Below, in pieces: positions 17,224 to 43,410 of a stretch of 64,000 bases of DNA. The position numbers and the translations under genes were made by a program. The stretch spans positions 1 through 64,000 of the forward strand of contig CALAKU010000006.1 in NCBI GenBank assembly GCA_937922925.1. The letters run 5' to 3'. This DNA comes from an uncultured Arenicella sp. (GTDB lineage Bacteria > Pseudomonadota > Gammaproteobacteria > Arenicellales > Arenicellaceae). The notes under the pieces were generated by a model that was not told the origin of the DNA, searched no databases, and saw only the letters and a program-made list of their open reading frames with translations. Each line of letters begins with the position of its first letter. The first letter of the stretch is position 1.

Positions 17224-17518
17224 GATTGTGCCTCAAAGAGTTAAGTTGCTTACCCTCGCTCGTCATCGTCAAGGGAGACGTCATTGTAGGAAAAAGCCGA
17301 TTTTGCAATTGCCCAGATGAAAATTAGCCCGTGTTTTTACACTAAAGTGCGGCGTTAATCAACGCATAAAACAGCTTTAATTATCTGCCGGTGCAAACTG
17401 CAAAATTTAGTGAGATACCTTGATTTACAAGCTTTTGGGTATTGTCCTCTGTTATACTTGAAGGTCCCAGCCAAATGGGGCTAAAACTATAATTTTTTGA
17501 TCAAATTGGGTGAACACT

Positions 17519-18280
17519 ATGACTACACCATTAGGAAAAATTTTCTTAGTGTCTGGATTGGCACTTGCTGTTGCAGCTTGTGGAAACAGCGAAGATGGTT
17601 CTGCGATATCAAATGCGATTGACGCAACAAAAGAAGCGGCGACCGACGCTGCTAACAGCGCTGGAAAAGTCGCTGATGGCGCAGTTGAGATGGCGAAAGA
17701 TGCTGGCGAAGCCGTATCTGACGCTGCCGAAGGTGCTGCTGAGATGGCAAAAGACGCTGGATCAGCTGTAGCTGACGGTGCAGGCGACATGGTTGATGGC
17801 GCTGCCGAAATGGCCAAAGACGCAGGCGGAGCCGTGGCTGATGCCGCTGGCGGAGCCGCTGAGATGGCAAAAGACGCTGGATCAGCTGTCGCCGAGGGTG
17901 CAGGTGATATGGTTGATGGCGCAACAGAAATGGCGAAAGACGCGGGTGGCGCGGTTGCTGACGCAGCCGGCGGCGCTGCTGAAATGGCCAAAGACGCTGG
18001 ATCAGCGGTGGCTGATGGCGCCGGCGACATGGTAGACGGTGCAGTAGAAATGGCTAAAGACGCAGGTGAAGGCGCTGCTGAGATGGCCAAAGACGCTGTT
18101 GACGGAGCTGCTGAAATGGCCAAAGACGCCAAAGACTCTGTTGACGGAGCCGCTGAAATGGCCAAGGACGCAAAAGATGCTGTTGACGGAGCTGCTGAAA
18201 TGGCAAAAGACGCAGGTGATGCGGTCGAAGGCGCTGCTTCAGACGCTGTTGACGAAGCTAAAGACGCAGTAGATCAATAA
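17519..18280 (+). CDS. Alanine-rich repeat lipoprotein, LEA/apolipoprotein-like
   Basis: Unknown family. The 253-aa product starts at ATG 17519, preceded by GGGTGA (17508-17513) at good spacing; a GTG at 17510 is also in frame. A lipobox (LAVAAC, Cys21) predicts a lipid-anchored protein; the residue after Cys is Gly. Everything after about residue 35 consists of degenerate 11-residue units such as GAAEMAKDAG and AVADGAGDMVD, which combine into a 40-residue higher repeat (120 bp). The composition (Ala, Asp, Glu, Lys, Gly, no Cys or Trp, no Pro) resembles group 3 LEA proteins and amphipathic-helix apolipoproteins. It is a single-gene unit with its own terminator. Role is unknown; a stress or envelope-protective function is only inference. 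Confidence 0.82.
   Translation: MTTPLGKIFLVSGLALAVAACGNSEDGSAISNAIDATKEAATDAANSAGKVADGAVEMAKDAGEAVSDAAEGAAEMAKDAGSAVADGAGDMVDGAAEMAKDAGGAVADAAGGAAEMAKDAGSAVAEGAGDMVDGATEMAKDAGGAVADAAGGAAEMAKDAGSAVADGAGDMVDGAVEMAKDAGEGAAEMAKDAVDGAAEMAKDAKDSVDGAAEMAKDAKDAVDGAAEMAKDAGDAVEGAASDAVDEAKDAVDQ
17731..18060 (+). repeat. 120-bp tandem repeats within the lipoprotein gene
   Basis: The block GA(G/A)ATGGC(A/C)AAAGACGCTGG recurs at about 17740, 17860 and 17980, exactly 120 bp apart, with the intervening sequence also conserved but carrying synonymous changes. Inside each 120-bp unit are 33-bp subunits encoding 11-residue repeats. The copies have diverged at third positions, so the expansion is not very recent. 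Confidence 0.85.
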
Positions 18281-30926: not shown

Positions 30927-31580
30927 TTAGAAATCGCCCCACAGAGATTCAACCCGACTGTCTCGACCACAGCCACGACGGTAAATTTGGTATCTAATTG
31001 GGTTCTTTTTGTAGTAGTCCTGATGATAGTCCTCGGCCAAATAAAACGGCTGCGCGGGAAGCAGCGGCGTGACTATGTCGGCCTCAAAGGGCTTATTTTC
31101 CTGTAAGTTTTGCAACGACGCTTCGGCGATTTCCTGCTCGGTTTGGTCGCCGTAAAACAAGGCGCTCACATAAGAGTGGCCTTTGTCGCAAAATTGGCCC
31201 GATGGATCCGTTGGGTCGATATGCCGCCAAAAATACTCAACCAACTCGCCATAGCTAACCGTTTGCGGGTTGTAATGTACTCTAACGGCCTCGATGTGGC
31301 CCGTTTGTTTATAGGTCACTGTTTTATAGTCAGCCGTGTCCTCGCTGCCTCCGGTATATCCAGATACAACCTCGGTAACGCCGTCGAGCTTTTCAAAGTC
31401 GGCTTCGATGCACCAGAAACAACCGCCGGCGAATATCGCGGTTTGTTCGAGTTTTTCATCGCTGTTTTTCTCTGTAACAGCTTGTTCGGCATCGGCGGAG
31501 TCAGTCTTCTCCGCCGCGAAAACGTAGCTTGTTACTACGGTCGCTATAAGGATTAAAAGGTAAGTGGTTCTTCGTAGCAT
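30927..31580 (-). CDS. msrA: Exported peptide-methionine (S)-S-oxide reductase MsrA
   Basis: Reduces methionine S-sulfoxide in proteins. The 217-aa product begins with a signal peptide (hydrophobic 6-22, ending VFAA), followed by an acidic linker (about 24-45) and the MsrA domain: the active site is GGCFWC (Cys54, with a second Cys57 in the same motif), then VVSGYTGG, QTGHIEAV and the FYLAEDYHQDYY segment. GCFWC-type MsrA recycle with a nearby second cysteine and occur in periplasmic or membrane-linked forms. It is divergent from the second, cytosolic MsrA. Confidence 0.92.
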   Translation of the reverse strand: MLRRTTYLLILIATVVTSYVFAAEKTDSADAEQAVTEKNSDEKLEQTAIFAGGCFWCIEADFEKLDGVTEVVSGYTGGSEDTADYKTVTYKQTGHIEAVRVHYNPQTVSYGELVEYFWRHIDPTDPSGQFCDKGHSYVSALFYGDQTEQEIAEASLQNLQENKPFEADIVTPLLPAQPFYLAEDYHQDYYKKNPIRYQIYRRGCGRDSRVESLWGDF

Positions 31581-31618
31581 AAGGTTGGGTTTTGTATCGC
31601 TTCACTGCAGCTTAGTTT

Positions 31619-31642
31619 AAATCTTGGTTCAAATCTTGATTC
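31619..31642. repeat. 12-bp tandem duplication between the msrA genes
   Basis: AAATCTTGGTTC (31619-31630) is followed directly by AAATCTTGATTC (31631-31642), one mismatch. It lies in the 144-bp divergent promoter region of the two msrA genes. Confidence 0.75.
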
Positions 31643-31724
31643 TAAAGGAGCGCGCGAGTGCGCTCATGCTTCGTCTAAGTTGCAATGATACAATAGAGGT
31701 TTATTAGTCTTACGAGAATAGACC

Positions 31725-32363
31725 GTGCTAGAACACAAATTATCACTTCCAACGTCCGAGCAAGCACTGCCTGGCAGAGCAACCCCGATGCCATTGGAGA
31801 ACACGCATTTTGTACATGGACGACCAATGAAGGCACCGTACTCGCCAGATGACTCCAAGCTCAGCGAATTGGTGCTTGGTATGGGATGTTTTTGGGGAGT
31901 TGAACGTAAATTCTGGGTTTTGCACGGTGTGTACACAACCGCCGTTGGCTATGCCGCAGGGGTGACGCCCAACCCAAGTTACGAAGAAGTGTGCACGGGT
32001 TTAACCGGCCACAATGAGGTGGTTTTAGTGGTGTACGATGAATCGATTATTTCAACGGCTGAGCTCGTTAAGGTGTTTTTTGAATCGCACGATCCGACTC
32101 AGGGAATGCGACAAGGTAATGACCGAGGCACGCAATATCGGTCTGGAATTTATTTTCGCAACGAAGAACAACAAGCCACGGCGAATGAGTTTCTAGTTAA
32201 GTACCAACAAGCCTTGCAAACCAGTGGTCGCGGCTCTATCACCACTGAAGTTTTACCTGTTCCCGAATTTTATTATGCAGAACAATACCATCAGCAATAT
32301 TTGGCTAAAAATCCAAATGGCTATTGTGGAATCGGCGGAACCGGCGTCACTTGCCCTCTTTAG
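31725..32363 (+). CDS. msrA: Cytosolic peptide-methionine (S)-S-oxide reductase MsrA, E. coli type
   Basis: Second MsrA, 212 aa, starting at GTG 31725. It has the long N-terminal arm of E. coli MsrA ([22 protein letters not shown]), the active-site motif [10 protein letters not shown] with Cys55, the substrate region TGHNEVV, and the C-terminal resolving cysteines in [14 protein letters not shown]. No signal peptide, so it acts in the cytoplasm. It is only distantly similar to the divergent exported copy, so they are not a recent duplication. Confidence 0.94.
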
Positions 32364-38825: not shown

Positions 38826-39416
38826 ATGGATTTGCGTAAGCGAAGAAGCCAAGAGAAATTGCAGCTGGCTCTGGCAGAACATCTGCAAAATAAAACCATC
38901 GATGAAATTACGATCGGCGAGTTGACCAAAACCGCCGGTGTGAGCCGCCAAACGTTTTACTCGAATTTCGACAGTAAGCAATCAATTTTGTTGAGCCGAA
39001 TTGAAACCTTGTTCGAGCGCAGTTGGGCAAAGTCAGAAAGCTTGATTCAAAGCACCGATATTGGTCGCGCAGAATTCGTTGAATTTTGCATCCGCAATCT
39101 CCTTGAAGAGTGTGAAAAAGAACGAACCTTGATGCGTGCTGCATTTACCGGTCAAGCCGGTATTCAATGCTTGTCTTTGTTAAAAAAATTGGTCTCAAGA
39201 CTCATTTCTGAACGAGTATTAGTTCAGTTCAATAATAATCTCGGCCCTCAACAATTAGACACCATCTCGGATTTCTATGCAGGCGGCGTGATTGGGACAG
39301 TGCAGGGTTGGCTTTTGGATGAAAGCCGTTCTAAAGACATTGATGACGTTGCTGCGAAAATCGGCCGACTCATACCCTATGGGCTTGATGGCTATCTGAA
39401 AAAATTAGACAGCTAA
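38826..39416 (+). CDS. TetR/AcrR family transcriptional regulator
   Basis: 196-aa repressor-type protein. The N-terminal HTH is IDEITIGELTKTAGVSRQTFYSNFDSKQSIL (recognition helix SRQTFYSNF); the remaining helical domain (about 60-196) is the ligand/dimerisation part, of unknown specificity. It is divergent from the lipoprotein/barrel operon and precedes an inositol monophosphatase family gene by 66 bp. A shared sequence motif in the upstream region suggests that it controls itself and the divergent operon. Confidence 0.9.
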   Translation: MDLRKRRSQEKLQLALAEHLQNKTIDEITIGELTKTAGVSRQTFYSNFDSKQSILLSRIETLFERSWAKSESLIQSTDIGRAEFVEFCIRNLLEECEKERTLMRAAFTGQAGIQCLSLLKKLVSRLISERVLVQFNNNLGPQQLDTISDFYAGGVIGTVQGWLLDESRSKDIDDVAAKIGRLIPYGLDGYLKKLDS

Positions 39417-39482: not shown

Positions 39483-40304
39483 ATGAGCGCTTCTATACAT
39501 CTTTCCTTTATTGACGTCGCAATGGCTGCGGCAAAGCAAGCGGGCAACGCTGTGCTATCCCGCGCGTCAGACATTAATACTCTTACAATTGAGCAAAAGT
39601 CTCTGCACGACTATGTCAGTGAAGTAGATCGTGACTCCGAGACCCTGATTCGCACCACGATTTTAAACGCTTTCCCCGAGCATCGTTTTCTGGGCGAAGA
39701 GTTTGGAGAATCCGAAGGCAATGCCGATGAATATCAATGGATTGTCGACCCGTTAGATGGCACTACCAACTTCTTGCGTGGCATAGGGCATTACGGTATA
39801 TCGATCGCCTTGCAGCACCGAGGTCAGTTGATTTGCGCGGCAATTTACGACCCAGTCAAAGATGAAATGTTTACGGCTGAGGATGGTGGCGGTGCTGCCT
39901 GTAATGGCCGACCTATATCCGTGAGTGATCGCTCTACTATGCAAGGCGGTATCTATGCAACGGGGGTTCCGTTTAATGGCCAAACCCTGGCGAACTTGGA
40001 GTGTTTTCAAAACTGTATGGCTGGTGTGCTTGAACAGCACACAGCTGGAGTTCGCAGGCTTGGATCGGCCGCTTTGGATTTGGCTTATGTGGCCGCAGGT
40101 CGCTATGAGGGGTATTGGGAAGCAAACCTACAGCCTTGGGATATTGCCGCAGGAATTTTGCTAGTACAGGAAGCGGGTGGCGTTGTAAGTGCGCTCTCAG
40201 GCGCTGCCGACATGCTAACAACTGGGCACGTTCTGGCAGCCTGCCCGGGAGCCTATAATGATCTGCTCGATATATGCCAAGCCAGTTACCGCTCTTGGAA
40301 GTAA
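39483..40304 (+). CDS. Inositol monophosphatase family protein (SuhB-like)
   Basis: Metal-dependent sugar/inositol phosphatase of 273 aa. Motifs: EQKSLHDYVSEVDRDSE, the catalytic GEEFGES (Glu), the metal-binding DPLDGTTNFLRG, and the last metal ligand in LQPWDIAAGILLVQEAGG. The order and residues are complete, so it should be active. Proteins of this kind include SuhB, which also acts in rRNA antitermination, but a second copy could exist elsewhere, so no symbol is given. Confidence 0.92.
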   Translation: MSASIHLSFIDVAMAAAKQAGNAVLSRASDINTLTIEQKSLHDYVSEVDRDSETLIRTTILNAFPEHRFLGEEFGESEGNADEYQWIVDPLDGTTNFLRGIGHYGISIALQHRGQLICAAIYDPVKDEMFTAEDGGGAACNGRPISVSDRSTMQGGIYATGVPFNGQTLANLECFQNCMAGVLEQHTAGVRRLGSAALDLAYVAAGRYEGYWEANLQPWDIAAGILLVQEAGGVVSALSGAADMLTTGHVLAACPGAYNDLLDICQASYRSWK

Positions 40305-40340: not shown

Positions 40341-40370
40341 AAAAAAAAGCCATCTGCGGACAGATGGCTT
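40341..40370 (-). terminator. Rho-independent terminator of the small membrane peptide gene
   Basis: On the minus strand: AAGCCATCTG, loop TCCG, CAGATGGCTT, then a run of eight T (40341-40348). It is strong in the minus direction and lies 54 bp after the stop of the 23-aa ORF. It may also weakly affect the plus-strand transcript of the preceding phosphatase gene. Confidence 0.85.
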
Positions 40371-40423
40371 AGTGATTAATCAGATTTAGGAGTGAGAACA
40401 GTGTTTTATCAAACTCGACCGTA

Positions 40424-40495
40424 TTAATGGTCGGTGATTTCAAACCAAGCCACCAAGCCTAAAAGTAAAAGGGTCACAATTGTCATGACTTCCAT
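40424..40495 (-). CDS. Predicted 23-residue membrane peptide
   Basis: Small ORF read from the minus strand: MEVMTIVTLLLLGLVAWFEI then TDH and TAA. The ATG at 40495 is preceded by GAGGTG (40501-40506 on the minus strand) with 5-nt spacing, a strong ribosome binding site. A single hydrophobic helix (residues 4-18) fits a bitopic inner-membrane peptide. The frame is followed by a terminator with eight T, making a self-contained transcription unit in an otherwise empty 500-bp gap. I do not recognise the family; small membrane subunits (such as those of cytochrome oxidases or transporters) and type I toxins have similar size and composition. Confidence 0.62.
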   Translation of the reverse strand: MEVMTIVTLLLLGLVAWFEITDH

Positions 40496-40793
40496 AATAG
40501 CACCTCGAATTTACATTAATGCTCCCGTGTTTTTCGACGATGGGAGACTCGTTCATTTGCTTACATTTTTGTTGAGCGCTAGTGCGTTTCAACACGCTTA
40601 ATATGCTCCCCAATTCTCTACTTTTAAAATGGTATCGACTCATATTAGAAATAACTAAAAAGAATGTATATTAAATGTGAAATTCATTTAAACCATAACA
40701 GGGCTGCTTTACCGGGTATTTGATGTTTGCATTGTCGACAATAATCAGAGTTTTCGCGCAAAAATAAAATTTAATCGACTATAATCAACTAAA

Positions 40794-40803: not shown

Positions 40804-40818
40804 ATTATGGTTGACGCC

Positions 40819-43410
40819 ATGAACACCGTTTTTCGAAAACCTCTACTGGATACCGGCCTTGATTACTTTGATGCGCAAGCCGCCGTTGATTCGATCAAAG
40901 CTGGCGCTTGGGCTGGTCTACCTTATAGTTCAAAAGTATTTGCCGAGAATTTGGTTCGTCGCTGTGAACCAGCAAAGCTTGACGCATCACTTGGGCAATT
41001 GATTGAGCGGAAGCGCGATCTGGACTTCCCTTGGTTTCCGGCCAGGGTGGTGTGCCACGACATCCTAGGCCAAACGGCATTGGTGGATTTGGCTGGTTTG
41101 CGTGACGCCATCGCCGACAAAGGTGGCGACCCGTCTAAAGTCAATCCGGTTGTGCCGACCCAATTAATTGTCGATCATTCCCTTGCGGTCGAGCATGCGG
41201 GCTTTGAAGCCGATGCGTTTGATAAGAATCGCGCCATTGAAGAGCGGCGTAATGAAGATCGTTTCCACTTTATTAATTGGACAAAAAAGGCGTTCAAAAA
41301 CGTCGATGTGATCCCACCAGGCAATGGCATCATGCACCAAATCAATTTGGAGCGGATGTCGCCGGTGATTCACTCACGAGACGGCGTGGCCTTCCCAGAC
41401 ACGCTGGTCGGTACCGATAGCCACACGCCTCATGTTGACGCTTTGGGTGTTATCGCTGTTGGGGTAGGCGGCTTAGAAGCCGAAAGCGTAATGCTAGGCA
41501 GAGCATCGTATCTGCGTTTACCCGATATCGTTGGCGTGAAACTCAACGGTAAGCGCCAGCCCGGCATTACGGCAACGGATATCGTGCTTGCGATCACCGA
41601 ATTTTTGCGACAAGAGCGGGTGGTGGGCGCATACTTGGAGTTCTTTGGCGAGGGTGCTTCCGACTTAGGTCTTGGTGATCGCGCAACGATTTCTAATATG
41701 ACGCCCGAGTACGGCGCCACCGCGGCGATGTTTTATATCGATCAAAAAACCATTGATTACTTGAAACTCACCGGTCGAGATGACGATCAAGTCGCCCTAG
41801 TTGAAACCTACGCTCGTGAAACAGGCCTGTGGGCCGACGGTATGATTGATGCCGACTACGAACGCGTATTGGAATTTGACCTCAGCTCGGTAGGGCGCAA
41901 TATTGCTGGGCCCTCAAACCCTCATCGCCGCGTTGCAACGAAAGACTTAAGCGATGCTGGTATCGTCAAAGACTATCAAGAGCAAGACGGCCTAATGCCT
42001 GATGGCGCGTGCATTATCGCTGCGATCACCAGTTGCACTAACACCAGTAACCCGCGCAATGTCATCGCAGCAGGTCTGTTGGCGCGCAATGCTAAGAAGC
42101 TTGGTTTGAACCGTAAGCCATGGGTGAAGACATCGTTGGCTCCGGGCAGCAAAGCGGTGCAAAGCTATCTAGAAGATGCGCAGTTGTTGGCCGATTTAGA
42201 GCATCTTGGCTTTGGCATCGTCGGCTTTGCCTGCACCACTTGCAATGGTATGAGCGGAGCCTTGGACCCGGTCATCCAAAACGAAATTATCGAGCGAGAT
42301 CTATACGCAACCGCGGTGCTCTCCGGTAATCGTAATTTTGATGGTCGAATTCATCCCTACGCCAAGCAGGCGTTTTTAGCCTCACCTCCATTGGTGATCG
42401 CGTATGCCATCGCGGGCTCTATCCATTTTGATATTGAAAACGGCGTGCTTGGTCAAACTGCAAACGGTGCCGACATTAAGTTGGCTGATATTTGGCCTAG
42501 CGACGAAGAAATCGACGAGATCGTCTTGCGACATGTTAAACCAAGCCAATTTAGAGAAGTCTATGAGCCAATGTTCAAGCTCGAAGTAGACAATGGCGAG
42601 CGAGTTAGCCCCCTATACGACTGGCGAGAAATGAGCACTTACATCCGCCGCCCGCCTTATTGGGAAGGGGCTTTAGCTGGCCAACGAAGTTTGTCTGGGC
42701 TGCGCCCATTGGCCGTTTTGGGCGATAACATCACTACCGATCACTTATCGCCTTCTAACGCGATTTTAGCGAGTAGTGCCGCAGGCGAGTATTTGGCCAA
42801 AATGGGCTTACCTGAAGAAGATTTTAACTCCTATGCGACCCACCGAGGCGATCACTTGACCGCGCAACGTGCCACCTTTGCTAACCCCAAACTGTTGAAT
42901 GAAATGGTGGTTGAAAATGGCGATGTCCTACAAGGCTCTTATGCCCGAGTTGAACCCGAGGGCAAAACCATGCGCATGTGGGAAGCGATTGAAACTTACA
43001 TGCAGCGCGAGCAGCCCCTGATTATTATTGCGGGAGCCGATTATGGCCAAGGGTCATCGCGCGACTGGGCTGCCAAAGGCGTTCGCCTTGCCGGAGTAGA
43101 AGTGATTGCGGCAGAAGGCTTTGAACGCATTCATCGTACTAACTTGATTGGTATGGGCGTCTTACCGCTTGAGTTTATGTCCGGAACCAATCGGCATACC
43201 TTAGAAATAGATGGAACCGAAGTGTATAGCGTTGAGGGCGATATAGCGCCGGGCGCAGAATTACAATTGACCATTGAGCGGCAAAGTGGCGACACGATTA
43301 CGGTTCCAATGTTATGCCGCCTAGACACCGCCGAAGAAGTCAGCATCTATGAAGCCGGGGGCGTATTGCAACGTTTTGCGCAAGACTTTCTCTCGGCCAA
43401 TGCGGCCTAA
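40819..43410 (+). CDS. acnD: Fe/S-dependent 2-methylcitrate dehydratase AcnD
   Basis: Aconitase-family enzyme of the methylcitrate cycle that dehydrates 2-methylcitrate to the 2-methylaconitate isomer used by PrpF. The ATG at 40819 (MNTVFRKPLLDTGLDYFDA) matches the family N-terminus; an in-frame ATG at 40807 adds four residues. Length 863 aa. The 4Fe-4S ligands are visible in ITSCTNTSNPRNV and CTTCNGMSG, the substrate region in GSSRDWAAKG, and DNITTDHLSPS. prpF follows after 43 bp, the pairing that distinguishes AcnD from AcnA. Confidence 0.95.
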   Translation: MNTVFRKPLLDTGLDYFDAQAAVDSIKAGAWAGLPYSSKVFAENLVRRCEPAKLDASLGQLIERKRDLDFPWFPARVVCHDILGQTALVDLAGLRDAIADKGGDPSKVNPVVPTQLIVDHSLAVEHAGFEADAFDKNRAIEERRNEDRFHFINWTKKAFKNVDVIPPGNGIMHQINLERMSPVIHSRDGVAFPDTLVGTDSHTPHVDALGVIAVGVGGLEAESVMLGRASYLRLPDIVGVKLNGKRQPGITATDIVLAITEFLRQERVVGAYLEFFGEGASDLGLGDRATISNMTPEYGATAAMFYIDQKTIDYLKLTGRDDDQVALVETYARETGLWADGMIDADYERVLEFDLSSVGRNIAGPSNPHRRVATKDLSDAGIVKDYQEQDGLMPDGACIIAAITSCTNTSNPRNVIAAGLLARNAKKLGLNRKPWVKTSLAPGSKAVQSYLEDAQLLADLEHLGFGIVGFACTTCNGMSGALDPVIQNEIIERDLYATAVLSGNRNFDGRIHPYAKQAFLASPPLVIAYAIAGSIHFDIENGVLGQTANGADIKLADIWPSDEEIDEIVLRHVKPSQFREVYEPMFKLEVDNGERVSPLYDWREMSTYIRRPPYWEGALAGQRSLSGLRPLAVLGDNITTDHLSPSNAILASSAAGEYLAKMGLPEEDFNSYATHRGDHLTAQRATFANPKLLNEMVVENGDVLQGSYARVEPEGKTMRMWEAIETYMQREQPLIIIAGADYGQGSSRDWAAKGVRLAGVEVIAAEGFERIHRTNLIGMGVLPLEFMSGTNRHTLEIDGTEVYSVEGDIAPGAELQLTIERQSGDTITVPMLCRLDTAEEVSIYEAGGVLQRFAQDFLSANAA

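Follow-up and report, generated by a model that had tools for sequence, protein, structure and literature searches.

We identified a 23-residue peptide gene, missed by annotation pipelines, that on comparative sequence evidence is real and conserved across Arenicella. Coding conservation of this gene, an sRNA-like gene located elsewhere in the genome, two complementarities between their transcripts and a correlated loss of the complementary segments were observed computationally. The reading that we favour, with moderate confidence, is that the trans-encoded sRNA represses the translation of an acidic inner-membrane peptide.

The peptide gene is on the minus strand of the window (the whole 64 kb stretch of DNA analysed), in a gap of ~500 bp between an inositol monophosphatase gene (39483-40304) and acnD (ORF at 40807-43410). 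The Shine-Dalgarno (SD) sequence GAGGTG (40501..40506) is followed by a 5-nt spacer, the start ATG (40495-40493), a 23-codon ORF (40424..40495) for the small membrane peptide MEVMTIVTLLLLGLVAWFEITDH, a member of what we define as subfamily A, and the stop TAA (40426-40424). An intrinsic terminator with a 10-bp stem (AAGCCATCTG/CAGATGGCTT) and T8 (40341..40370, minus strand) comes next. Both this layout and the gap between phosphatase gene and acnD had been described in the first-pass annotation and are borne out, the distance from stop codon to stem being 53 bp. Both neighbours are on the plus strand, with the inositol monophosphatase gene convergent and acnD divergent, and the peptide gene is thus monocistronic. 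A leader-peptide reading was dropped, as there is no same-strand gene downstream of the ORF. Among all ORFs of 15-40 codons in the window, this is the only one with an SD-like motif and a Kyte-Doolittle mean >2.0 over 15 residues. Given that it is unique in the window and that its frame is kept in relatives, the ORF is beyond chance.

Upstream of the ORF is a likely sigma70-type promoter (40598..40628, minus strand), recognized by consensus only and conserved across homologues, with a -35 box of TTTAAA (40628-40623) and a -10 box of CATATT (40605-40600) separated by 17 bp. An imperfect dyad, AGTTATTTCTAATATGAGTCGATACC (40631..40656, minus strand), abuts the -35 box on the upstream side and is a possible operator. 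Its genus form, GGTTATTTCTAATATGAGATTAAACC, is conserved upstream of subfamily-A genes; the exact core occurs once in the window and at few other sites in the genus. A genus-wide search for a promoter-dyad regulon returned few sites other than those at the peptide gene, and its totals were little above those of the reversed-pattern control. A gene for a TetR-family regulator (38826-39416), conserved in this neighbourhood in the majority of the genomes examined, encodes a candidate binder of the dyad. Elsewhere in the window we noted two msrA-like genes (peptide methionine sulfoxide reductase), side by side and divergent (30927-32363), and a lipoprotein-like ORF with many AEMAKDAGxAV repeats (17510-18280), whose complementary strand also contains a long open frame.

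A profile search detected the peptide family in 17 of 18 Arenicella genomes (in G016 only via a second subfamily, B), many of the compared genomes being metagenome assemblies. Frame, length (23 codons), stop codon and a C-terminal D-H are conserved in the 18 subfamily-A genes, and pooled over these genes pS is 0.68 and pN is 0.19, indicating strong purifying selection on the frame. As pN is far below pS, selection acts on the protein. The first-pass annotation had claimed an unannotated small protein, to be checked by a homologue search and a comparison of synonymous and nonsynonymous change; both analyses support the claim, and the protein is very likely expressed. A DNA search of 60 relatives revealed that the conserved block comprises the ribosome binding site (RBS) and the coding region, and that the terminator is not part of it. 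The dyad, the -35/-10 pair and the RBS are conserved and the terminator occurs in most copies, while the remaining untranslated sequence diverges freely. The pattern expected of an RNA without a peptide, i.e., conservation of the terminator only, is thereby excluded. A promoter-like block and terminator of its own and a short transcript would also suit a noncoding sRNA with a chance ORF, but this reading, already refuted by the substitution pattern, is extremely improbable: frame, length and stop are kept, and it is the untranslated parts that vary outside short motifs.

The subfamily-A peptides have one hydrophobic segment, an acidic C-terminus, conserved residues E19, D22 and H23, and zero Lys or Arg (18 of 18 peptides). 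Their locus is usually the same, with the inositol monophosphatase gene on one side and acnD, prpC-like or astB-like genes on the other. Subfamily B (consensus MEIMxxVTLxLLGLVAYIE...) is found at other loci (L064-L071, in genomes G007, G011, G003, G005, G013, G016, G010 and G004), mostly adjoining a conserved LysR-type (NhaR-like) regulator gene, and in several genomes NhaA-family and SbtA-family (SbtA-like) transporters are encoded nearby. Cation efflux, NhaA and SbtA-like proteins are recurrent neighbours of the peptide family, which suggests, through guilt by proximity, that ion transport is the first place to look for the role of the peptide. In G004 (L081:2644-6070), a peptide gene is downstream of ORFs that by eye resemble Dot/Icm-type secretion components (DotI, DotD, DotC and DotB-like).

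Two distant relatives of the peptide were detected in the sister genus of the family, and a sample of 369 genomes of the class yielded no match outside the genus at E ≤ 0.01. As far as searched, the peptide family appears to be restricted to Arenicellaceae. Searches of Pfam, NCBIfam, PADLOC and PDB returned no convincing family or relative, and Rfam returned only low-scoring noise for the peptide transcript, with nothing at the gathering score. Weak hits of the peptide family to PhrA_Strep (E 0.02), DUF3985 (E 0.0039) and GldM (E 0.56) were rejected as too marginal and scattered. CydX, KdpF and CcoQ are single-helix inner-membrane peptides of roughly 20-40 residues or slightly more, whose genes lie within or next to the operon for the corresponding enzyme. 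The Arenicella peptide is likewise a small bitopic peptide with a single helix, but its monocistronic gene lacks a co-transcribed partner. No Pfam or NCBIfam family, known small-subunit families (KdpF, CydX, CcoQ, MetS and similar) included, matched the peptide, and its relatives yielded only weak, scattered hits.

The 3′ UTR of the peptide gene contains a putative sRNA pairing site, site II (CACUGUUCUCACUCCUA, 40387..40403, minus strand), with the core CUCACUCC at 40389-40396. This core is invariant in 14 of the 18 subfamily-A genes, in a UTR that is otherwise poorly conserved. It is mostly inside CACUAGCCUCACUCC(U)...GCUAG, which forms a hairpin with the word in the loop, and the loop is predicted to be 0.97-0.99 unpaired in 4 of 6 element-bearing genes tested. 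In the window's own genome (G000), the element is off a clean hairpin loop, with a mean unpaired value of 0.29. A genus-wide search with the complement of the 3′ element led to one conserved intergenic locus, in 11 genomes; the other matches were the peptide gene itself and a few unconserved sites.

The intergenic locus is an sRNA-like gene of ~115 nt; in nearly all genomes it lies on the upstream side of glyQ, in divergent orientation. In G000 it is at G000:C8:112004-112117, beyond the window. A covariance model recovers it in 17 of 18 genomes. The locus has promoter-like boxes (TAGACA-17-TAACTT), the ~115-nt body and a terminator, on the same strand as GGAGUGAGG; the strand was deduced from these promoter and terminator signals, and the terminator looks bidirectional. 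The predicted fold beats 200 of 200 shuffles (z -5.2), and changes on both sides were seen at 9 base pairs, 8 of which belong to the terminator stem. Between two hairpins is an unpaired linker, CCUAGGAGUGAGGAAAGUGC, with the seed GGAGUGAGG. In Rfam the locus drew low-scoring noise and no covariance match at the gathering score, and a literature search returned nothing relevant on small RNAs in Arenicella or on this sRNA. An sRNA-like gene is also present upstream of glyQ in the sister genus (G019, L175), with the linker AGGAGGAUGAGAGG, and the 3′ UTRs of the sister-genus peptides carry C-rich UCUCCUCC words. The fit between that linker and the 3′ UTR is weak (rank 42 of 1198), and the notion that linker and words form a compensated pair is only suggestive.

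The core CUCACUCC is complementary to the unpaired linker of the Arenicella sRNA, at GGAGUGAGG. Unrestricted folding of long duplexes was uninformative, and we used a ranking with the linker only instead. In this ranking, site II is the best of 6396 windows for the linker (-24.8 kcal/mol); for G000 the ranking covers the 64 kb window, and the sRNA may have other targets. Against local background, the linker has its top or near-top site in the 3′ UTR in 13 of 15 genomes. Two-RNA folds of the other tested genomes with the element reached -16 to -18.5 kcal/mol, versus null medians of -6.5 to -10.4. In G000 the value was -8.9 versus a null median of -5.0, a modest gain over shuffles.

A second putative pairing site, site I (GUGCUAUUA, 40495..40503, minus strand), is at the RBS and start codon and forms a 9-nt perfect complement to UAAUAGCAC of the sRNA. 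An equally long match to UAAUAGCAC occurs at only 3 of the 2090 ATG windows in the 64 kb, that of the peptide gene included. The 13-mer AGGTGCTATTATG has 10 exact occurrences in the 18 genomes, all at subfamily-A start codons, and 11 genes share an identical SD-ATG spacer. Since spacers of this kind can usually vary without constraint, the identity needs an explanation. The RBS complement is absent or shorter in several genomes, and a two-site mechanism is thus not universal. The first-pass annotation, correct as to the peptide gene itself, had missed this conserved RNA layer, i.e., segments at the RBS and in the 3′ UTR that are complementary to a trans-encoded sRNA.

Sites and seed were compared across genomes. 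The seed GGAGUGAGG is kept in all 13 genomes with site II and is changed in 3 of the 4 sRNA-bearing genomes without a good site II, to GGAGCGAGG in G012 and G016 and by an interruption that disrupts it in G014. The exception is G009, which keeps the seed despite an element of only 7 nt. The association of element and seed has a p of about 0.006 if genomes are treated as independent, which, being related, they are not. In a GlyQ tree, G012 is among close relatives that keep both element and seed; since these neighbours are intact, the joint loss in G012 is derived. Site I is kept without a good site II in G012 and G009, and site II without site I in G015, G005, G002 and G004. G014 has neither site. 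Of two additional copies, the non-syntenic one in G017 has both sites and the one in G003 has neither.

These patterns bear on whether the small protein is real and the sRNA complementarity non-functional, with the shared word being instead a binding motif (DNA or protein) or a coincidence passed on by descent. The two loci do also resemble one double-stranded motif in opposite orientations, and because the majority of pairing positions never vary, there are few compensatory changes by which to test them. However, element and seed were lost together in G012 and G014, the RBS provides a second, separate complement, and the structural contexts match, with a loop in the 3′ UTR and a linker in the sRNA. 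We regard a non-functional complementarity as quite unlikely. Functional pairing, by which the sRNA probably controls the amount of peptide, remains the preferred reading.

An RNA-level role of the peptide transcript was also considered, in which the mRNA, or a 3′ fragment of it, would titrate the sRNA or regulate other mRNAs via CUCACUCC, besides encoding the peptide. CUCACUCC is anti-Shine-Dalgarno-like, and its position in a C-rich loop between ORF and terminator is reminiscent of the cytosine-rich segment of VcdRP of Vibrio cholerae, in which a single short transcript likewise combines a small ORF with a C-rich segment for base pairing (PMC8672173). In that system the peptide, VcdP, interacts with citrate synthase, and the RNA, VcdR, uses cytosines to regulate PTS mRNAs (PMC8672173). 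In contrast, the Arenicella peptide is hydrophobic, and the one conserved partner matched by the C-rich segment of its transcript is another sRNA: the 11-nt complement matches that single other conserved locus in the genus and no mRNA starts. The RBS complementarity, moreover, points to the mRNA as the regulated partner. A dual-function or sponge RNA is therefore an unlikely alternative to repression of the peptide mRNA by the sRNA.

The first-pass annotation had left a subunit and a type I toxin undistinguished. A short hydrophobic peptide (23 residues, one segment; peptides of this class usually have under 60) and an sRNA complementary to its mRNA at two sites have the anatomy of a type I toxin-antitoxin system with a trans-encoded antitoxin, in which peptide free of sRNA control would depolarise the membrane, as for tisB/istR-1. 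In the accounts of tisB/istR-1 and zorO/orzO (PMC11449926, PMC3919570), a short hydrophobic membrane peptide is likewise encoded by an mRNA complementary to a separately transcribed sRNA. Compared with the systems as described there, the Arenicella peptide is without basic residues and strongly conserved across the genus, its sRNA gene is far off beside glyQ with complementarity to the RBS and the 3′ UTR, and it has paralogues without sRNA sites. Subfamily B carries neither pairing site, thus the peptide family does not need the sRNA. The absence of Lys and Arg, the conserved acidic C-terminus, the strong purifying selection, the near-universal presence in the genus at mostly fixed synteny and the lack of a PADLOC match also argue against a toxin, which is now less likely than when first raised; we consider it rather unlikely. 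With its single helix, its lack of Lys and Arg and its conserved E19, D22 and H23, the subfamily-A peptide looks more like a regulator that partners a membrane protein than like a toxin that forms pores.

In the model that we favour, the monocistronic gene would give rise to a ~250-nt mRNA and a 23-residue acidic, single-helix (bitopic) inner-membrane protein. The ~115-nt trans-encoded sRNA, transcribed divergently from glyQ, would target this mRNA, with its linker CCUAGGAGUGAGGAAAGUGC pairing with the 3′ UTR element CUCACUCC as an anchor and its UAAUAGCAC pairing with GUGCUAUUA and covering the RBS. This pairing would block initiation and/or destabilise the mRNA. When sRNA is low, the peptide would be made and would bind and modulate a membrane protein partner. 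Transcription, repression, membrane insertion and partner binding are what we infer from the computational observations. We put forward only tentatively, and with some doubt, the more specific version of a dedicated two-RNA circuit, in which the sRNA bridges the RBS and the 3′ UTR hairpin loop and so turns off a regulator peptide of the inner membrane that occurs genus-wide and belongs to a new family.

The sRNA and the peptide mRNA form a specific, testable pair, with natural broken versions in G012 and G014. If true, pairing at both the RBS and the 3′ UTR would be an uncommon regulatory arrangement for an mRNA of this small size. Looking for the complement of a conserved 3′ UTR word can reveal conserved small ORFs jointly with their sRNA partners. 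For a little-studied marine lineage, the analysis brings to light a small protein family that is conserved and unannotated, together with an sRNA gene that had not been described before.
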